Made by a program: the position numbers and the translations under genes. A stretch of DNA of 64,000 nt, taken from positions 479,501 to 543,500 of the forward strand of contig NZ_CP156060.1 of assembly GCF_039778605.1 (NCBI RefSeq), in the 5' to 3' direction. This document shows, piece after piece, positions 14,701-63,633 of this stretch. The notes below the pieces were generated by a model, which saw only the letters and a list, made by a program, of their open reading frames with translations, was not told where the DNA came from and made no database searches. Position 1 is the first letter of the stretch; each line of letters opens with the position of its first letter. Origin of the DNA: Flavobacterium sp. WV_118_3. Its GTDB lineage: Bacteria; Bacteroidota; Bacteroidia; Flavobacteriales; Flavobacteriaceae.

Positions 14701-14731
14701 AAAGCCCCGAAATTTATTTTCGGGGCTTTTT
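14701..14731. terminator. Bidirectional terminator between E2 and WYL genes
   Basis: A 12-bp stem (arms 14701-14712 and 14718-14729) is followed by T6 on the plus strand and ends at the stop of the convergent WYL gene. Confidence 0.85.
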
Positions 14732-15744
14732 TATTGGTCATAGCGTTGATTAGCTTTTTCCAATCGGCGTTTGATGGTTCGTGCCAGTATTTTTGGCGCC
14801 AATACTTTTACATTTTCTCCAAAACCCAGTATTTCCCGTTCCAATTCAAAATTTAAAACAACATCTATACGAATGATCAGTCCTTTTTCATCTTCACTAA
14901 GGATTTGCTGTGAAGCATGTAACGGCTTGGTTTTTACATACGGACTATTATATGGGTCGAATTGTAAAATGACCCGATGTGCTCTGTCTTTCTGGGTTTT
15001 GGTTACGCCGATGGCGTCTTCAAAGTAGCGTTCGAAATCAATGCCTTCGTAAGGAATATACAATTCTTTGGATAAGGTATAAAAAGCCTCGATACGATCC
15101 AGTGCCAGCGTAACCAAAGTCGTTCCTTTTTTGGGTTTCGTAATTAAAAACCATCGGTTTCGGTATTCTTTTAAAAGATACGGATGGTAGATATCCTGTC
15201 GGGATTCTTTGGCTTTGAATGAACGGTATTCGATTAATAAGGGTGTCTGGTTTAGAATGGCCTGGTATATAGGTGTTAAATGTTCAATTCCTTTTAATTG
15301 AGCATTGCTCTCAAATTGGATGTAGTTTTTGGTTTTGTCAGACGATTTATAGAGATTGTTCTCCAAACGTGCAATCATTCCACTCATTTCATCAAAATAA
15401 TTAAACCCGTTAAACTGTTTTAAAAGCGCAACGATTTCTTTCATCTTTTCCATATCCGCATCATTAATCGGCGAGTTGGTAATACTGAATTGTTCGTCTT
15501 CGTACGAATAATATTTTCGATCGGTTACTATAATCGGTGCATTATAGCCCAAACGATCACTGCGCATCATCTGGATATCGCCCTGAATGGTTCTTTTGCT
15601 GATACCGGTACTGATACCTTCATATTCATATAAGGCATCGGCTACTTTTTCGATCAGATCGTCCAACGTCCACTTCCGGAATCGGTTGCGTAAGCAATTA
15701 TCGATGGTTTTATAGCGAATTAAAGCGAGTTTGTTTGTAGCCAT
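14731..15744 (-). CDS. WYL-domain transcriptional regulator of the RNA repair locus
   Basis: This is a 337-residue DNA-binding regulator. The N-terminal part (residues 1-60) has a winged-helix arrangement (LDDLIEKVADALYEYEG, ISKRTIQGDIQMMRSD). The centre is a WYL ligand-sensing domain (LLIEYRSFKAKES, YHPYLLKEYRNRWFLIT; here RWFL in place of WYL) followed by the C-terminal extension. WYL proteins are known to sense nucleic-acid fragments or nucleotides in several DNA-damage and defence systems. It is divergent from the Ro60/Rsr gene with a 287-bp shared regulatory region, so I infer that it controls the rsr-Y RNA-rlaP-rtcB operon. Confidence 0.9.
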   Translation of the reverse strand: MATNKLALIRYKTIDNCLRNRFRKWTLDDLIEKVADALYEYEGISTGISKRTIQGDIQMMRSDRLGYNAPIIVTDRKYYSYEDEQFSITNSPINDADMEKMKEIVALLKQFNGFNYFDEMSGMIARLENNLYKSSDKTKNYIQFESNAQLKGIEHLTPIYQAILNQTPLLIEYRSFKAKESRQDIYHPYLLKEYRNRWFLITKPKKGTTLVTLALDRIEAFYTLSKELYIPYEGIDFERYFEDAIGVTKTQKDRAHRVILQFDPYNSPYVKTKPLHASQQILSEDEKGLIIRIDVVLNFELEREILGFGENVKVLAPKILARTIKRRLEKANQRYDQ

Positions 15745-15803
15745 TTCAATAAGAAATTAGTGGTTTGGTTAAATAATGACCAAATTGGATTTTGATTTTA
15801 AAG

Positions 15804-15968
15804 CAAATATAGCTTTTATTGCGCAATGTATTTGCGTAGTTTTTTGTTTTTGATAGGGTTAACTGTTTTTTTTAGCATTTAATATTTTGATAATTAATGA
15901 ATTGAAAAATAATTTGTAAAAAATATTTCACTGCGTATTTATGTTGCGTACTTAGGTGGCCATCTTTG
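15804..15968. promoter_or_regulatory. Divergent promoter/operator region between WYL regulator and rsr
   Basis: This AT-rich shared region contains a minus-strand -7 box (TATATTTG complement at 15804-15811) for the WYL gene, a palindrome ATTGCGCAAT (15818-15827) next to it, and three copies of TGCGTA (15833-15838, 15932-15937, 15945-15950), the last two 13 bp apart. CATCTTTG (15961-15968) resembles the -7 box for rsr. The spaced TGCGTA copies just upstream of that box are candidate operators. The assignment is inference from position. Confidence 0.5.
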
Positions 15969-16031
15969 CAATGTCAGGATAACACAACAATCCTGTAACA
16001 AAAACGAAGTGTAACAACTAAAAGTAAAACG

Positions 16032-17549
16032 ATGAAATTCAATTTATTAAAAAGAGAAAGTAAAAGAATCATCAATAATGAAGGAGCTGTGGCTTACGTA
16101 ATGTCGCCAGAAGAAGAATTGTATACCGCAGTTGTTACAACCGGATTAAGTGATTCTTTTTATGAAAAGCAAGAGGAACGATTGCAGCGAATTAAAGAAT
16201 TAATGGCAAAATGCGATCCGGAATTTGTAGCGAAATTAGCTGCATATGCTCGAAATGAAATGAACTTGCGTTCTGTTCCGATGGTATTGACAGTGGAATT
16301 AGCAAAATTGGCTTCCGGAAATGCAACGGTAAGCAAAGCAGTTGCTAATGTGGTGAAAAGAGCAGATGAGATTTCGGAATTGTTAGCCTATTATCAGTTG
16401 GCCAACGAACGAAAAGAAACCAAAAAATTAAACCGACTTTCAAAGCAAATTCAGAAAGGTTTGGCAGTATCGTTCAATACGTTTGATGAATATCAGTTTG
16501 CAAAATACAACCGGAAAACGGAAGTGACTTTAAAAGATGCTTTGTTTTTGGTTCACCCGAAAGCAAAAGACCAAAACCAACAGGAGTTATTTAATAAAAT
16601 AGTAAACAATACGTTGGCAGTTCCCTATACATGGGAAACGGAACTTTCGGTTTTAGGAACGGTAAAATTTGAAAATATAAACGCTCGTACTATGGCTTTT
16701 GGCCTAAAATGGGAAGAATTGATCGAAAGCCGTAAAGTAGGTTATATGGCTTTGATGCGAAACCTTCGGAATATACTCGAAGCAAAAGTATCGGCAAAAC
16801 ATATCGCTATGGTTTGTGATTATTTGACGAATGAAAAAGCAGTTATTAATTCCAAACAATTGCCCTTTCGGTTTTTGGCAGCCTATCGGGAAGTGAAACA
16901 AATTAGTTCGCCGTTTACGTCCAGTATTTTGGAGGCTTTAGAAAAAGCGGTTACCATAAGTGCGCAAAATATTCGCGGATTTGGTTACGATACATCAGTA
17001 GTGATCGCTTGTGATGTTTCGGGATCCATGCAAAAACCGATCTCGGCACGAAGTAAAATATTGTTGTATGATATCGGTTTGGTATTGGGAATGTTAATGC
17101 AATCCCGTTGTAAAAATGTAATCAGCGGGATGTTTGGGGATAGCTGGAAAGTAATCAATATGTCAAAAAGTGCCATACTTGCCAATGTGGAAGAATATTA
17201 TAGGAGAGAGGGGGAAGTAGGTTATGCAACGAACGGACATTTGGTATTGGAAGATTTGATTCGTAAAAACCAGCAGGTGGACAAGGTGATGTTTTTTACC
17301 GATGTCCAGATGTGGGACAGTAAAATGACTTTTAATTCGTTTGCCGGTTCCTGGAAAAAGTACAAACGAATTGCGCCACAGGCAAAATTGTATTTGTTCG
17401 ATTTGGCGGGATACGGTCAGCAACCGATAGATGTACGAGAGAATGATGTGTATTTGATGGCCGGTTGGTCCGATAAAATATTTGATCTTTTAGATGCTTT
17501 GGAAAACAAAGAAACAGCCTTGGATAAAATCAATGCCATTGGGTTGTAG
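16032..17549 (+). CDS. rsr: Ro60/Rsr ring protein (TROVE + vWA domains)
   Basis: This is a 505-residue bacterial Ro60 orthologue. The family forms a HEAT-repeat ring that binds the ends of misfolded RNAs in its hole and Y RNAs on its outer face; in bacteria it works with exonucleases in RNA decay and recovery from stress. Residues 1 to about 320 are the TROVE domain (AKLAAYARNEMNLRSVPMVL is the typical early helix pair; LRNILEAKVSAKHI follows). From about 325 comes the vWA domain with the MIDAS motif ACDVSGSMQ. It is the first gene of the operon and is directly followed by five Y-RNA-like RNAs. Confidence 0.95.
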   Translation: MKFNLLKRESKRIINNEGAVAYVMSPEEELYTAVVTTGLSDSFYEKQEERLQRIKELMAKCDPEFVAKLAAYARNEMNLRSVPMVLTVELAKLASGNATVSKAVANVVKRADEISELLAYYQLANERKETKKLNRLSKQIQKGLAVSFNTFDEYQFAKYNRKTEVTLKDALFLVHPKAKDQNQQELFNKIVNNTLAVPYTWETELSVLGTVKFENINARTMAFGLKWEELIESRKVGYMALMRNLRNILEAKVSAKHIAMVCDYLTNEKAVINSKQLPFRFLAAYREVKQISSPFTSSILEALEKAVTISAQNIRGFGYDTSVVIACDVSGSMQKPISARSKILLYDIGLVLGMLMQSRCKNVISGMFGDSWKVINMSKSAILANVEEYYRREGEVGYATNGHLVLEDLIRKNQQVDKVMFFTDVQMWDSKMTFNSFAGSWKKYKRIAPQAKLYLFDLAGYGQQPIDVRENDVYLMAGWSDKIFDLLDALENKETALDKINAIGL

Positions 17550-17554
17550 GTGGT

Positions 17555-17583
17555 ACTCCCACGGTTAAGAACATCGTGGGAGT
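17555..17583 (+). other. Stem-loop after rsr, before the Y RNA array
   Basis: A perfect 9-bp stem (ACTCCCACG at 17555-17563 with CGTGGGAGT at 17575-17583) lies 6 bp after the rsr stop and has no T tract. It may stabilise the rsr mRNA end or mark processing between mRNA and the RNA array. Confidence 0.55.
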
Positions 17584-17599
17584 TATAAAAGAAATAAAA

Positions 17600-17731
17600 A
17601 AACAGGTGTCGTAAAAAAGAGTTACTTCGCATTTAGACTGCCCGGGTCGCGGGTTCGAATCCCGCCATCGCTAAGATGTAGCTCAGTTGGTAGAGCAGGA
17701 TTATATGCTCTTTTTGCTAGTTGCCCTGTTT
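17600..17731 (+). ncRNA. Y-RNA-like RNA 1 with circularly permuted tRNA-like domain
   Basis: The ends pair (AAACAGG 17600-17606 with CCTGTTT 17725-17731) and continue into an A/U-rich stem (AAAAAGAG near 17614-17621 with CTCTTTTT 17708-17715). The motif GTCGTAA lies in the 5' strand and TTACTTCG (17622-17629) just after it; both recur in the other RNAs. Inside is a T arm (GCGGG TTCGAAT CCCGC, 17649-17665), a short acceptor hairpin (CATC 17666-17669 with GATG 17675-17678, loop GCTAA), TA at positions equivalent to tRNA 8-9, and a D arm (GCTC AGTTGGTA GAGC, 17681-17696). The T arm comes before the D arm, so the tRNA is permuted, its acceptor closed and its anticodon arm replaced by the Ro-binding stem. 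Confidence 0.8.
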
Positions 17732-17737
17732 AAAAAT

Positions 17738-17874
17738 AAAACAGAATGTCGTAGAAAAAAGGTACTTCGTCACCACTTAGGGGAGGAATAGCGAAGTTGT
17801 AAAAGCAGCAAGGCTATCCGGTTCGATTCCGGCAATGACAGCCCCGGTACTTTTTTCGAATGTAGCTTCTGTTT
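17738..17874 (+). ncRNA. Y-RNA-like RNA 2 with tRNA-like domain in normal D-then-T order
   Basis: The ends pair (AAACAGAA 17738-17745 with TTCTGTTT 17867-17874), followed by GAAAAAA (17754-17760) with TTTTTTC (17851-17857) and GTAC with GTAC. The shared motifs appear as TGTCGTA and GTACTTCG. Inside, GGGG (17780-17783) pairs with CCCC (17842-17845) as an acceptor-like stem; TA then precedes a degenerate D arm (17791-17806, GAAGTTGTAAA loop); a few bases replace the anticodon arm; and the T arm is CCGG TTCGATT CCGG (17818-17832). Here the order is normal and the Ro stem extends the acceptor end, opposite to RNA 1. Confidence 0.7.
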
Positions 17875-17875
17875 C

Positions 17876-17961
17876 GTAGGTTGTCGTAAACAAATGTTAC
17901 TTCGTTGGTAGATTAAATTGGGTTCGAGTCCCGAAAGTCATTTGTTGCTTGTCACGCTTAC
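17876..17961 (+). ncRNA. Y-RNA-like RNA 3 with T arm and D-loop motif
   Basis: The outer pairing is GTAGG (17876-17880) with CTTAC (17957-17961); the inner stem is CAAATG (17891-17896) with CATTTG (17939-17944). TTGTCGTAAA and TTACTTCG (17897-17904) are present. The loop contains GTTGGTAGA (17904-17912), the D-loop consensus without a clear D stem, then a full T arm (TTGGG TTCGAGT CCCGA, 17918-17934). It starts 1 base after RNA 2 ends. At about 86 nt it is a reduced version. Confidence 0.65.
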
Positions 17962-17963
17962 AC

Positions 17964-18034
17964 AAAGAGTGCCGTACTAAAGTGTTACTTCGTACAATTA
18001 AAAGGACTGATCACTTTACCAATATTGCCTCTTT
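17964..18034 (+). ncRNA. Y-RNA-like RNA 4, minimal, without tRNA-like arms
   Basis: The outer stem is AAAGAG (17964-17969) with CTCTTT (18029-18034); the inner stem is TAAAGTG (17978-17984) with CACTTTA (18012-18018). GCCGTAC and TTACTTCG (17985-17992) match the conserved positions. The 19-base loop (17993-18011) has no D or T arm, so this may be only a Ro-binding module. Confidence 0.55.
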
Positions 18035-18051
18035 ACAATTAAAACAAAAAT

Positions 18052-18183
18052 ACCGGTGTCGTAAAAAAAAGAGTTACTTCGATTAGGGGTCGGGTAGAGT
18101 CGGTTCGATTCCGACACTGTACTTGTCAGTACAGATAGTATAATGGTAGCACACTCTAGTACTCTTTTTGCTTGTTACCCGGT
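18052..18183 (+). ncRNA. Y-RNA-like RNA 5 with complete permuted tRNA-like domain
   Basis: The ends pair (ACCGG 18052-18056 with CCGGT 18179-18183) and continue with an A-rich/U-rich stem (AAAAAGAG to 18073 with CTCTTTTT 18162-18169). TGTCGTAA and TTACTTCG (18074-18081) are as in RNA 1. The domain is a perfect T arm (GTCGG TTCGATT CCGAC, 18099-18115), then an acceptor hairpin (CTGTAC 18117-18122 with GTACAG 18129-18134, loop TTGTCA), one unpaired A on each side, TA as tRNA bases 8-9, and a D arm (GTATAATGGTAGCAC, 18138-18152). Counting from the T arm, every interval equals that of a standard tRNA, but with the chain cut in the anticodon arm and joined at the acceptor. Confidence 0.8.
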
Positions 18184-18201
18184 TTTATAAAAAGCTTAAA
18201 A

Positions 18202-19002
18202 ATGAAAACAATAATAGCAGAAAAATTAAAAGAAATAGAAAGGGCAAACGGTATAAAAATAGTGTTTGCCTACGAATCCGGAAGCCGCGCCTGGGGATTT
18301 CCTTCTCCGGATAGCGATTATGATGTACGATTCGTCTATATACGTAATGTAAATGATTATTTATCGGTTAAAGAGGTAGATGGACATTTATCATTTCCGA
18401 TAACGGACGAACTGGATGTGTATGGTTGGGATTTGAAAAAAGTATTGCAACTCATGAATAAATCCAACACAACAATATTCGAATGGTTGCAATCACCGGA
18501 AGTCTATTGCGAAGAAAAAGGATTTCGTGAAACGCTATGGCAGTTGTCGCAAGGTTTTTTTAGTGAAAGGAGTAATGCGTTTCATTATTTGGGAATCGCT
18601 AAAAGTGCACTGTTGACGATGGAGGAAGGTAATGAAATAAAAATCAAAAAGTTGTTTTACATCCTTCGCCCTTTATTGGCGGCCAAATGGTGTGTCGAAA
18701 AAGAAACGATAGCACCGATGACAATGGAAAAACTATTGACCGTATTGCCGGATGAGGCTAAAGTGAAAACAACAATATTGAAATTGATCAAACAAAAAGA
18801 AACTGCAAAAGAAGCCGATAAGGTTATGATAACCGAGGAACTAAGTGATTTTATAAAAACAACTTTTGAAAAAACAACAGAAGCCGTAAAATCGGTCGGA
18901 AAAGATATATTCGAAACCGAAAGTCTGGATGCCTTTTTTCAAACCATGCTAAAACGTTATGACAATACAGGAAATAAAAGAAAAAGGACTGCTGCTGTTT
19001 GA
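18202..19002 (+). CDS. RlaP-type nucleotidyltransferase 1 (RNA repair)
   Basis: This is a 266-residue predicted nucleotidyltransferase of the DNA polymerase beta superfamily (PF10127, RlaP). The active-site strand-turn is ESGSRAWGFPSPDSDYDVRF, with the two Asp of the hG(G/S)xDxD pattern. The helical C-terminal half contains NTTIFEWLQSP and LRPLLAAKWCVE, also typical. Members are found with RtcB and related repair genes and are thought to add nucleotides to RNA ends, but the activity is not proven here. I start at the ATG at 18202 (MKTIIAEKLKEIERA), because the longer frame to 18172 runs into the 3' strand of Y RNA 5. Confidence 0.88.
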   Translation: MKTIIAEKLKEIERANGIKIVFAYESGSRAWGFPSPDSDYDVRFVYIRNVNDYLSVKEVDGHLSFPITDELDVYGWDLKKVLQLMNKSNTTIFEWLQSPEVYCEEKGFRETLWQLSQGFFSERSNAFHYLGIAKSALLTMEEGNEIKIKKLFYILRPLLAAKWCVEKETIAPMTMEKLLTVLPDEAKVKTTILKLIKQKETAKEADKVMITEELSDFIKTTFEKTTEAVKSVGKDIFETESLDAFFQTMLKRYDNTGNKRKRTAAV

Positions 19003-20020
19003 ATGTGTCAGCGGTAGTAAAGCCTATGGTTTGGATATGCCGGAATCGGATACCGATCTGAAAGGTGTATTTTATCTTCCTAAAGAACAGTTCTTCGGAT
19101 TGCAACATGTAGCACAGGTTCAGAATGAAACCAATGATGAAGTGTATTATGAATTGGGTAGATTTGTAGAATTGCTTTTAAAAAACAACCCAAATATATT
19201 GGAATTATTGGCGACACCGGAAGATTGTGTGTTGTTTAAGCATCCGATTATGGAACGGCTTACAATCGAAATGTTTCTGTCGAAACAAACAAAAGATACT
19301 TTTTCCGGTTATGCGGTAACACAGATCCGTAAGGCGAAAGGATTGAAAAAGAAAATAGTAAATCCTTTTCCGAAGGAAAAAAAGGAAGTGCAGGATTTCT
19401 GTTTTGTTTTGCAAAATTACGATGCGGTTCCGTTTCGGGATTGGATTGCAGCACAGGGATATGAACAAGAACGCTGCGGATTGGTAAAACTACCGCATGC
19501 AAAGGGAATGTATGCTTTGTTTTATGATCAAACCGGAATAAAAAGTTATAAAGGAGTACAGAAAAATAAGCATTCCAACGAGGTGAGTTTGTCATCGGTG
19601 GATGAAGGTGAAGTAGTACAAGTATATTTGTGTTTTAATACAGAAAGTTATTCGTCCTATTGTAAGGATTATAATGCCTATTGGGAATGGGTTGAAAAGC
19701 GTAATCAGGAGCGTTATGCCGTAAATGAAAAACATCAGGGCGGATACGATTCCAAAAATATGATGCATACCATACGATTGTTGGAAGTAGCTGATGAACT
19801 CATGGAAACCGGAAAACTCAATATCAGACGCAAAAACCGGGAAGCTTTGCTGGCTATTAAAGCAGGAGAAAAAAGTTATGAAGAACTGCTGCTACTAGCT
19901 GAAAATATACTGGAGCGTATTGAAAGTAAGTATAACGAAAGTGATTTAAATGATTTTCCCGATATCGAAAAAGCGGAAATGCTTTTGATGGAAATGCGGG
20001 AAGAATTATACAATAGATAA
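18959..20020 (+). CDS. RlaP-type nucleotidyltransferase 2 (RNA repair)
   Basis: This is a 353-residue second member of the same superfamily, only distantly similar to its neighbour. The active-site region is VSGSKAYGLDMPESDTDLKG, and ENPNILELLATP-like sequence (NNPNILELLATPEDCV) follows. It starts 44 bases inside the preceding gene in another frame, so translation is probably coupled, and its stop overlaps the RtcB start by one base (TAATG). Two different RlaP proteins in tandem suggest two RNA-end substrates or a hetero-oligomer. Confidence 0.88.
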   Translation: MTIQEIKEKGLLLFECVSGSKAYGLDMPESDTDLKGVFYLPKEQFFGLQHVAQVQNETNDEVYYELGRFVELLLKNNPNILELLATPEDCVLFKHPIMERLTIEMFLSKQTKDTFSGYAVTQIRKAKGLKKKIVNPFPKEKKEVQDFCFVLQNYDAVPFRDWIAAQGYEQERCGLVKLPHAKGMYALFYDQTGIKSYKGVQKNKHSNEVSLSSVDEGEVVQVYLCFNTESYSSYCKDYNAYWEWVEKRNQERYAVNEKHQGGYDSKNMMHTIRLLEVADELMETGKLNIRRKNREALLAIKAGEKSYEELLLLAENILERIESKYNESDLNDFPDIEKAEMLLMEMREELYNR

Positions 20021-21441
20021 TGGAAACAAAAATTACAGGAACCGATTTAATAGCGGTTGGATATAGCGAAAATGCCATTTTAGGATTGGCATTAAAAATA
20101 GCAGCAAAACAGTTCGGTCAGGATAAGATTGCGATGTTAGCGTTGTTGAAAAATATAAAAGAGCATCCGGAACGATACCTGGACGATGCAACATGGGAGG
20201 AATTGGCTATAAAGTTAATAGAGTTGGCCAATGCTCCGGTTGATGAAACAATACCGTTGTTGGAAACCGGAAAAGAATACCGGGTATTCGGAGCAGAGCA
20301 TATTGAAGAAGGCGCTCAAAATCAGATGCGAGTAGCGATGCGGTTACCGGTTACGGTTGCTGGTGCTTTAATGCCCGATGCACATCAGGGGTACGGATTA
20401 CCGATTGGTGGTGTTCTGGCAACAAAAAATGCGATTATTCCGTATGGTGTCGGAGTGGATATCGGTTGTCGTATGGCGTTGTCGATCTATGATATTCCGG
20501 AAACGCATTTTTATGAGAATCTGGCGAAATACAAAAGAGAGTTAATTGCCAATACAAAATTTGGCGCCGGACATGGGTATCACGGGCAACATAAAACGCA
20601 ACATGATATTCTCGACCGAGACGAGTTTAACCTGACACCGTTTATTAAAAAGTTGCAGGATAAAGCCTGGTCGCAATTGGGAACATCCGGTGGAGGAAAT
20701 CACTTTGTGGAATTCGGAATCATTGAATTCGAACAACGTGATGAGGTGTTGAATATTGATAAAGGAAGATATGTGGCTTTGTTAACGCATTCCGGATCAA
20801 GAGGGATGGGGGCCACGATAGCCGGACATTATACGCAGCTGGCCAAAAAAATATGTAAGTTGCCGCAGGAAGCAGCCAATCTGGCGTATCTGAATATGGA
20901 TTCGCAGGAAGGAATGGAATATTGGTTGGCGATGAATTTGGCTGGCGATTATGCTTCGGCTTGTCATCAGGTGATTCACGAAAAGATGCAAAAAGCACTT
21001 GGAGGGACACTTTTAGCAAAGGTGGAAAACCATCATAATTTTGCATGGAAAGAAATTTGGAATGGCGAAGAGGTTATTGTTCACCGAAAAGGTGCCACGC
21101 CAGCCGGAAAAGGAGTGATGGGAATCATTCCGGGTTCGATGACAGCTCCCGGTTTTTTGGTGCGCGGAAAAGGAGAATCGGAAGCGATTCATTCGGCTTC
21201 ACATGGTGCTGGAAGACAGATGAGCCGTACGCAGGCGGTGAAAACTATTACCAAAGCCGATATGCGTGAGGTGTTAAAAGAACACGGGGTAACGCTTGTC
21301 GGTGCCGGAAGAGACGAGGCGCCAATGGCCTATAAAGATATCACTGTGGTGATGGAAGCACAACAAGAACTGATTGATGTGGTGGCGAAGTTTACACCAA
21401 AGTTGGTCCGAATGGCCGATGACGGTAGTCACGAAGATTAA
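20020..21441 (+). CDS. rtcB: RNA-splicing ligase RtcB (copy 1)
   Basis: This 473-residue ligase joins RNA 2',3'-cyclic phosphate or 3'-phosphate ends to 5'-OH ends using GTP and Mn2+. Visible motifs are GALMPDAHQGYGLPIGGV (about 115-132), GVGVDIGC with metal-binding Asp and Cys (C150), GTSGGGNHFVEFG (221-233), LLTHSGSRGMG, VENHHNFAW, VHRKGATPA, and SASHGAGRQMSR with the His expected to carry GMP. All metal-binding and catalytic positions look intact. An N-terminal extension of about 80 residues precedes the core. It is the last gene of the operon and is followed by a terminator. Confidence 0.97.
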   Translation: METKITGTDLIAVGYSENAILGLALKIAAKQFGQDKIAMLALLKNIKEHPERYLDDATWEELAIKLIELANAPVDETIPLLETGKEYRVFGAEHIEEGAQNQMRVAMRLPVTVAGALMPDAHQGYGLPIGGVLATKNAIIPYGVGVDIGCRMALSIYDIPETHFYENLAKYKRELIANTKFGAGHGYHGQHKTQHDILDRDEFNLTPFIKKLQDKAWSQLGTSGGGNHFVEFGIIEFEQRDEVLNIDKGRYVALLTHSGSRGMGATIAGHYTQLAKKICKLPQEAANLAYLNMDSQEGMEYWLAMNLAGDYASACHQVIHEKMQKALGGTLLAKVENHHNFAWKEIWNGEEVIVHRKGATPAGKGVMGIIPGSMTAPGFLVRGKGESEAIHSASHGAGRQMSRTQAVKTITKADMREVLKEHGVTLVGAGRDEAPMAYKDITVVMEAQQELIDVVAKFTPKLVRMADDGSHED

Positions 21442-21480
21442 AACAAAAGCCTCGAAGTTTATTTTTCGGGGCTTTTGTTT
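21441..21480 (+). terminator. Terminator of the rsr-rtcB operon
   Basis: A 16-bp stem with one G-T pair (arms 21441-21456 and 21465-21480) continues into a T-rich tract. Confidence 0.8.
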
Positions 21481-21604
21481 ATTGTTTTTTGCTCGGATTT
21501 AGGGAATTGAGAACTATTCGGATGGCAAAAAAGAGGGGTGTAAAACAGGAGTCGGTTTTTGTGTGAATTGGATAAAAAAAATGATATTAGAATGGTTTTA
21601 AAAT

Positions 21605-63365: not shown

Positions 63366-63373
63366 TATCTTTG
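63366..63373 (+). promoter_or_regulatory. TAnnTTTG -7 box for the riboswitch/btuB transcript
   Basis: TATCTTTG lies just upstream of the riboswitch, with transcription expected near 63380. Confidence 0.6.
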
Positions 63374-63394
63374 CAATGTATTATGGTTATACTT

Positions 63395-63590
63395 AAGCCT
63401 TTCGCTGAGTATATTAAAAGGGAATCAAGTGCCGTCCGATATAATGGATACAATCTTGAGCTGTACCCGCAACTGTGAGCTTTGTTCTTCCGAAAAAACG
63501 GAGAATGCCTGTTGTTATGCTTCGACCACTGTAACGTATCGTTATGGGAAGGTGAACCACAGGACGCAAGCCAGGAGACCTGCCATAGTA
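63395..63590 (+). ncRNA. Cobalamin riboswitch
   Basis: The conserved core GCTGTACCCGCAACTGT lies at about 63460-63476 and the B12 box AGCCAGGAGACCTGCC at 63569-63584, with GGGAATCAAGTGCC upstream. It lies 44 nt before the BtuB-like ATG. A short AAGC/GCTT hairpin near 63603-63624 could be the expression platform. Confidence 0.92.
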
Positions 63591-63633
63591 AATAATAATT
63601 AAAAGCTTTCGGGAAAAAAGGCTTGTTAAGACT

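Follow-up and report, generated by a model that had tools for sequence, protein, structure and literature searches.

The genome of Flavobacterium sp. WV_118_3 contains a gene for the Ro60-type ring protein Rsr, which is followed on the same strand by five tandem small RNA units and by RNA-repair genes. We analyzed this locus within a stretch of 64,000 nucleotides (nt) (contig NZ_CP156060.1, positions 479,501–543,500; hereafter the window, whose own numbering is used throughout). The locus is probably a Ro60 RNA-repair operon in which rsr precedes a cassette of five Y RNAs that would act as plug-in adaptors for one ring. Ro-type stems bind Rsr, and YrlA heads bind PNPase. Each of the five RNAs possesses the same predicted Rsr-binding stem, in which an outer helix, one bulged U, and two pairs (G-C and Y-R) lead through a small asymmetric loop to an inner helix of 7–8 bp and then to NUACUUCG. 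The five RNAs are real as sequence and structure, and their tandem arrangement between rsr and the RNA-repair genes, which a first-pass annotation of the window had claimed, was confirmed by a motif search, a unit finder, and a covariance model designated R1.

As read from the plus strand, each unit consists of the outer stem, U, GYCGUA, the inner stem of 7–8 bp, NUACUUCG, an insert, the second half of the inner stem, 9–10 nt ending in RC, and the second half of the outer stem. The units are 71–138 nt in length and are separated by 7, 1, 2, and 14 nt; the close packing and the approximate lengths given by the annotation (gaps of 1–17 nt and lengths of 70–135 nt) were thus reproduced, while its upper figure for the gaps and its exact limits for the lengths were not. 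The pattern GYCGTAN{4,12}DKTACTTCG matched five times in the whole 3.85-Mb genome, each time within window positions 17608–18081, and the reversed control pattern matched once. A looser pattern, GYCGTAN{6,10}NTACTTCG, gave seven genome matches, five of them in the array.

The heads carried by the common module differ from unit to unit. RNA1 (17600–17731; R1 score, 116.6 bits) has a circularly permuted tRNA mimic with the layout of YrlA, which we designate as class A. It comprises a T arm, GCGGG-TTCGAAT-CCCGC (17649–17665), whose helix covaries in class A; a closed "acceptor" hairpin, CATC..GATG (17666–17678), placed by the R1 alignment, the corresponding class A helix having changes on both sides in 7/7 pairs; and a D arm, TAGCTCAGTTGGTAGAGCA (17679–17697), placed by the Rfam and R1 alignments, whose helix is nearly invariant in class A and hence shows no covariation of its own. 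RNA2 (17739–17874; 38.8 bits) has tRNA-like arms in the normal order (class B: GGGG, D-like hairpin, T arm, CCCC), and RNA3 (17876–17961; 38.7 bits) has a bare elbow made of a D-loop-like strand, TTGGTAGA, and a T arm (class C); the D-like parts of both were read by eye. RNA4 (17964–18034; 42.0 bits) has a 19-nt loop and no tRNA part (class D). RNA5 (18049–18186; 75.7 bits, outside the training alignment) carries a second permuted tRNA mimic, in which the fit to R1 places the T arm at 18099–18115, the acceptor hairpin at 18117–18134, and the D arm at about 18136–18153. No anticodon arm was seen in any of the window heads. The annotation had described the insert domains simply as variable; they are variable, but the same classes recur among them, for the most part tRNA mimics of differing circular order, and this it had not seen. 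Of the features that define bacterial Y RNAs, all five units have a position beside a Ro60/rsr gene and ends paired in a conserved stem with a bulge or internal loop, the latter on the evidence of covariation, with mixed results from energy folding. The permuted tRNA-like domain of the YrlA layout is present in RNA1 and RNA5; RNA2, RNA3, and RNA4 have the normal order, a T arm only, and no tRNA part, respectively.

Related genomes provided the evidence for the module. Outer- and inner-stem positions were paired in 87–99% of 158 distinct stem sets, compared with means of 41–86% for shuffled partners, a difference that is partly circular in that the unit finder itself selects for these stems. 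For all of the 105 exact 5′ motifs, the sequence downstream of the motif contained a 3′ partner (score ≥24), compared with 12/105 after shuffling of that sequence and 151/525 in trials with the downstream sequence of other loci, which contains sister RNAs. Two tests that are less circular carry more weight. In the first, the pairing examined was not a criterion of selection, as the finder gave a score bonus for UUGC, UUAC, or UAGC and ignored the Y: across 194 units, the Y of GYCGTA faced the R of the 3′ RC as C-G in 82, U-A in 78, U-G in 14, and C-A in 2, and 18 units had no RC there. This puts two pairs, G-C and Y-R, directly behind the one bulged U. The second test used class alignments made by MAFFT without structure, from units picked by class: in class A (34 of 57 units aligned), 27 of the 33 RNAalifold pairs had changed on both sides, and the covariation score was 0.632, against 0.217 for shuffled and 0.110–0.161 for slid alignments. 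For class B (27 of 32 units aligned), 25 of 35 named pairs had changed on both sides, and the score was 0.421 against 0.160; 12 RNAs similar to RNA3 were aligned for class C and 18 for class D. A chance repeat was ruled out by the reverse-complement, reversed, and shuffled or other-locus controls.

Arrays of this kind commonly accompany rsr in related genomes, and rsr itself is patchily distributed (3/397 genomes in an even draw from the family, 22/249 in the genus, and 28/395 in the phylum, the present genome included). In 46 stretches oriented downstream of rsr (the window, 3 named loci, and 42 from other genomes; 251,190 bases), the unit finder called 194 units in 45, compared with 1 in the reverse complement and 1 in the reversed sequence. 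Together with the covarying stems and the Y-R pair, this bears out the proposed conserved Ro-type module with variable inserts. The number of units per stretch was 0 in 1, 2 in 4, 3 in 6, 4 in 15, 5 in 14, 6 in 4, and 7 in 2; these counts are rough, since the finder overlooks degenerate units and no fewer than 4 of its 194 calls appear to be wrong (L035 at 2872, L093 at 819, L094 at 773, and L097 at 1852). With three or more script-called units in 41/46 stretches, a cluster of five is not the unusual arrangement that the annotation took it to be. The stretch without called units (L106) lies at a contig edge, yet gave several R1 matches. Outside the 46, a set made up of five Ro loci of greater distance and a fragment (L072, L100–L103, and L105) gave 3 units in all by the finder and several by R1.

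Classified by rule, the units comprise class A, the permuted tRNA mimic (57 units in 42 stretches); class B, with a T arm in a GGG/CCC-closed head of normal order (32 in 32, L086 being misassigned as judged by eye); class C, comprising every short head that has a T arm (20 in 20); class D, a short loop without a T arm (44 in 31); class t, with a T arm but a D arm not caught (19 in 18); and class o, others (18 in 15). Classes E (23S-like) and F (Ro stem in a D loop) have 2 units each. The D-arm rule also fired on 12/194 shuffled inserts. By these rules, the window array reads A, B, C, D, t, where the fifth unit, RNA5, fits R1 with a T arm, an acceptor hairpin, and a D arm. When each window RNA was compared with its siblings and with the units of 44 other loci, a closer relative was found in the other locus in 28 cases for RNA2, 33 for RNA3, 32 for RNA4, 7 for RNA1, and 0 for RNA5.

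A covariance-model search, which the annotation had suggested with a model of the five units, was run with R1, built from 34 class A RNAs that included RNA1 but none of RNA2–RNA5. At E ≤ 1, its only matches in the 64-kb window were the five units, with ends within 1 nt. Among 249 genomes of the same genus, 181 had an R1 match at E ≤ 1e-6, and scores above 61 bits were obtained in 22/22 rsr-positive genomes and 0/227 others (lowest best score, 63.1; top rsr-negative score, 60.3); this cut was chosen after the scores had been seen, and 6 of the 22 rsr-positive genomes contributed no sequence to the model. The motif pattern alone matched in at least 99 of the 249 genomes.

Several results weigh against the interpretation of the five units as Y RNAs of one Ro60 operon. 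R1 also matches tandem tRNA genes: in the genome of the strain, it gave 16 further matches at E ≤ 0.01, with scores up to 57.1 bits, 13 of which span two tRNA hits and 3 of which overlap one. Its use as a genome-wide finder of Y RNAs was dropped for this reason, and the identification of RNA2–RNA4 therefore rests on the motif, the module, and conservation. RNA1 matched the Rfam YrlA family (RF02553) over its whole length (model positions 1–114 of 114) with 43.3 bits (E = 4.1e-8), which is below the gathering score of 69 and justifies only the label YrlA-like; RNA2–RNA5 gave no RF02553 match at E ≤ 5. YrlA matches in relatives (10/11 and 3/3 of two sets) were likewise all below the cut-off. In class B, the D-like helix is weak (82% paired, with changes on both sides in 2/5 pairs), the GGGG/CCCC helix hardly varies (changes on both sides in 1/4 pairs), and RNAalifold left undrawn both of these helices and the hairpin between them. 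RNA1 and RNA5 are 74% identical and closest to each other, and are possibly plain duplicates. Given this likeness and the closer relatives that RNA2–RNA4 have elsewhere, the array holds three conserved kinds and two units that may be a duplicate pair. Finally, no RtcB homolog was found in 18/45 other stretches.

Energy folding belongs to the same side of the account. The single-unit z-scores against base shuffles were −1.6, −1.8, −0.4, −2.3, and −1.8 for RNA1–RNA5, respectively, and folding energy alone is weak evidence for the units. When folded singly, RNA2–RNA5 form most of both stems, and the G-C and Y-R pairs have probabilities of 0.7–1.0 in RNA4 and RNA5 but 0.03–0.4 in RNA1–RNA3; the inner stem of RNA1 has a probability of about 0.1. 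When the whole array (611 nt) is folded, cross-pairing leaves most modules unformed, with module-pair probabilities of about 0 for RNA1, RNA2, and RNA5, about 0.2 for RNA3 (0.01 for its G-C and Y-R pairs), and about 0.4 for RNA4. As the tandem units have similar stems, the array would fold correctly only with the help of co-transcriptional order, cutting, or Rsr.

The genes around the array are those of an RNA-repair operon, with the order rsr, five small RNA units, rlaP, rlaP, and rtcB on the plus strand and a divergent regulator gene on the minus strand, and the RNA-repair neighborhood stated by the annotation was corroborated by Pfam. The ring protein is encoded at 16032–17549 (505 amino acids; TROVE, 7e-30). 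It is closest to Flavobacterium proteins (top named match, F. cerinum, 80%), and its PDB relatives are the TROVE-domain entries 9l5y (1.8e-26) and 9kop (1.9e-26) and Ro60 1yvp (1.1e-4). Downstream of the array lie rlaP1 (18202–19002; RNA-repair nucleotidyltransferase; RlaP, 4.7e-76), its paralog rlaP2 (18959–20020; RlaP, 2e-23), and the RNA ligase gene rtcB (20020–21441; RtcB, 1.8e-83). The recognizable repair genes stop at rtcB, since the next four open reading frames of the plus strand encode two WG-repeat proteins, an exonuclease, and an FAA hydrolase; no RtcA was found among the 11 window proteins scanned, which included these four. An RtcB homolog follows the array in 27/45 other stretches, with 27–34% identity in 6 of them. 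The window operon has two RlaP paralogs (18202–20020); in the other stretches, RlaP was found in only 1/45 (L087). The regulator gene (14731–15744, minus strand) faces away from rsr and encodes a WYL-WCX transcription regulator (WYL, 2.8e-11; WCX, 3e-12), which is a likely candidate for controlling the operon. Between the rsr stop codon and the first unit is a stable hairpin (17555–17583, plus strand; −17.0 kcal/mol), which may be an end or stability element; the annotation had let its array begin here, and the hairpin lies outside the five units, which begin at 17600. The 110 nt preceding the first unit had a fold z-score below −2 in 34/45 loci, in many of them through the operator palindrome described below. 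Far from the operon, a cobalamin riboswitch is located at 63367–63601 (97.6 bits).

The spacer between the WYL gene and rsr contains two operator-like sites, TGCGCA-N7-TGCGTA (15820–15838) and TGCGTA-N7-TGCGTA (15932–15950), the latter just upstream of rsr, followed by ATCTTTG, and a candidate part of the promoter. The palindrome pair TRCGYA-N7-TRCGYA occurs at four places in the genome; the other two lie within open reading frames whose minimum lengths are 570 and 165 amino acids. It was found upstream of rsr in 36/41 regions, a count that includes the window, and never in 55,500 bases of rsr coding sequence. ATCTTTG or a similar word follows several operator examples and resembles the Bacteroidota −7 element. 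A WYL homolog is located beside rsr in 27/54 loci, the window counted, a figure in which some may be missed because 51 of the 54 loci had a flank of only about 1.5 kb. The operator on the WYL side probably controls the operon, and its position suggests that the WYL protein binds it. Between rsr and rlaP of the window (17549–18202), we found neither an operator pair nor a sigma-70-like match on the plus strand, although that promoter type may not apply to the host; therefore, one operon transcript is the simplest reading. The annotation had noted the absence of internal promoters, and this holds for the window but not for all relatives, as an operator lies within 160 nt in front of 16/45 arrays, the window array not being among the 16. 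An operator was also found between script-called units in 3 arrays, in L035 only by way of a wrongly called far unit. A separate promoter or terminator for each unit was considered and rejected: the region 15750–21550 has 10 promoter-like sites, against a shuffled mean of 15.6, and 6 terminator-like sites, against 4.9, and the only terminator-like site inside RNA1 (17692–17711) overlaps its D arm.

On this basis, we propose a mechanism in which the five RNAs would most likely be cut at the short joints from an rsr-rlaP-rlaP-rtcB transcript, and Rsr bound to the outer stem would protect the cut pieces. One Rsr ring could then carry any of five heads: a pair of YrlA-type permuted tRNA mimics, a tRNA-like head attached through its acceptor end, a bare elbow, and a plain cap. 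Under RNA-damage stress, which may be sensed through the WYL regulator, the ring would be brought by its tRNA-like heads to proteins that handle tRNA, such as PNPase, as is the case for YrlA, and perhaps RlaP or RtcB, while the plain RNA4 would only gate the ring.

Other explanations account for parts of these data. The heads could be decoys that mimic tRNA to capture tRNA-cutting nucleases, tRNA-modifying enzymes, or tRNA-fragment sensors, with Rsr merely stabilizing them. The T and D arms of RNA1 and RNA5, the T arm and D-like hairpin of RNA2, the T arm and D-loop-like strand of RNA3, and the adjoining RNA-repair genes would suit such a role, and one study proposes the tRNA-like domain of YrlA as a possible competitive inhibitor of an anticodon nuclease (PMC7790460). 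We consider this unlikely: the window heads show no anticodon arm, and class D units, which have no tRNA part, occur in 31/46 stretches. The anticodon arm is the usual target of tRNA-cutting nucleases. It is rather improbable, too, that the units are interchangeable duplicates whose sole effect is a higher dose of Y RNA for each Rsr, because the recurrence of RNA2, RNA3, and RNA4 as separate classes with different head architectures across genomes is at odds with mere dosage, to which the common Ro module and the 74% identity of RNA1 and RNA5 would otherwise point.

There is little probability that the array acts only in cis, with its structure between the cistrons governing how stable rsr and rlaP/rtcB are or in what ratio they are expressed, and that the RNAs have no role in trans. 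It does lie between coding genes, with no operator inside it in the window, and its whole-array fold is compact (−155.8 kcal/mol); however, the Ro module covaries unit by unit, an operator precedes 16/45 arrays at close range, and in two loci (L007 and L008), no rtcB or rlaP homolog was found within 5 kb after rsr. The idea that the units are functionless remnants of tandem tRNA genes or pseudogenes takes its force from the resemblance of the permuted heads to the junction of two tandem tRNA genes and from the matches of R1 to tandem tRNA pairs in the same genome, up to 57 bits. It is close to refuted because the outer and inner Ro stems, which lie outside the tRNA part, show compensatory change across several families; moreover, RNA4 has no tRNA part at all. 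Ordinary tRNA genes were also rejected. ARAGORN found 0 in the window, and none of the units forms a full cloverleaf with an anticodon arm; the Rfam tRNA match of RNA1 (30.9 bits; cut-off, 29) is partial, as the T arm is real but the remainder of the alignment treats the Ro module as if it were a D arm. When the 194 units were compared by BLAST with one 23S locus and 30 of the 67 tRNA matches in the genome of the strain, short matches only were obtained, and for the RNAs of the window, there was no match at E ≤ 0.001, so that no parent tRNA can be named.

The Y RNA cassette that we favor could be an instance of a wider principle, which we put forward tentatively. Bacteroidota Ro60 would be a modular platform in which one ring accepts a plug of RNA that never changes, while the genome supplies a cassette of heads that can be swapped. 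The heads would graft tRNA onto the Ro stem at different cut points, and each would direct the ring to its own damaged RNA or repair enzyme. The cut points would be the anticodon position (RNA1 and RNA5) and the acceptor end (RNA2), down to the bare elbow (RNA3); in relatives, they would include the D loop with a tRNA-Leu-like long arm, and the heads would include a piece of 23S rRNA in two relatives. By eye, the Ro stem is seemingly inside a tRNA D loop in the third units of L090, L091, L093, L094, and L095, the fifth of L087, and the fourth of L088. These heads start like GCAGACGC or GTTAGAGC and end in the 5′ D half, and several have a long variable arm like that of tRNA-Leu. Two Y-like units have inserts with a 23S-like start: in L099:3222-3451 (230 nt), bases 30–62 match positions 1914–1946 of the 23S rRNA of the Flavobacterium sp. 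WV_118_3 genome at 32/33, and in L041:1629-1856 (228 nt), the identity is 86% over 29 nt. No Ro RNA that mimics rRNA is known to us.

The permuted head may be derived from the junction of two tandem tRNA genes. The permuted-tRNA model fits such junctions in the genome of the strain, e.g., G000:C1:588106-588259, hinting at a possible origin of YrlA-type heads. A separate 131-bp tandem array of 6.6 copies (TRF; G000:C1:1523509-1524237, L162) consists of degenerate tRNA-like copies after a real tRNA-Val gene.

R1 also matched beside TROVE genes outside the 46 stretches. It scored 96 bits on a Deinococcus gobiensis plasmid, where Rfam YrlA scored 49.6, and 80 bits on an unannotated YrlA-like RNA upstream of the Ro gene of phage csAssE-Sib (L141:2454-2587). 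R1 matches adjoin far more distant Bacteroidota Ro genes (24–36% identity); by their coordinates, those of L101 and L072 lie upstream of the gene, and those of L102 and L103 lie downstream. On a Haloplanus plasmid (L144:1309-2331), five Rfam tRNA matches stand in a row upstream of an archaeal TROVE gene; R1 is weak there, and the row is possibly an archaeal Y RNA array. Two other stretches with Ro genes, one from Pseudomonas sp. Leaf58 (L143) and one from an uncultured phage (L145), gave no R1 match at E ≤ 0.1.

A 2014 study by Chen reportedly placed likely Y RNAs near Ro60 in over 250 species, with at least one per species having a tRNA-like domain. For the question of what bacterial Y RNAs do beyond the PNPase tether of Deinococcus, the present operon combines a single Rsr with five heads, one of which is a minimal tRNA mimic and another of which has no tRNA part, and a head-by-head comparison could tell which part of the tRNA mimicry matters and who the partners are. 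In addition, covariation defines the bacterial Ro site sharply, which can be used to find Y RNAs overlooked by the Rfam model. Among the literature matches listed, none described Y RNA arrays in Bacteroidota, and such arrays may already be in print.

The window array resembles known Ro systems in several respects. YrlA is described in Salmonella and Mycobacterium smegmatis (PMC4726728); its basal stem holds Rsr, and its tRNA-like head binds PNPase and is modified by DusA and TruB (PMC8394870). RNA1 and RNA5 share with it the position adjoining rsr and the basal stem followed by a permuted T arm, closed acceptor hairpin, and D arm, whereas the other three window RNAs have no YrlA head. The array is like tRNA in having T-arm, D-arm, and acceptor-like helices, and unlike it in the permuted order of RNA1 and RNA5 and in having no anticodon arm seen. 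The rsr-yrlBA-rtcBA locus of Salmonella, described as having two Y RNAs, yrlB and yrlA (PMC7790460, PMC9879122), with rsr, the Y RNAs, and rtcB in one operon and a divergent regulator gene (PMC9879122), has the same order of rsr, Y RNAs, and rtcB and the divergent regulator gene as the window. In contrast, the window has five RNAs instead of two, two RlaP genes, no RtcA among the 11 proteins scanned, and a WYL regulator with a TRCGYA palindrome in place of RtcR and sigma-54. The Rsr-Y RNA-PNPase complex (RYPER) of Deinococcus radiodurans, in which one Y RNA tethers the Ro ring to the nuclease (PMC4726728, PMC8394870), provides a model for such a ring-nuclease tether, and by analogy, the window RNAs may be linked to PNPase in a similar manner. 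Bacterial Y RNAs are already known, and the multi-headed array described here looks like a new variant of them.

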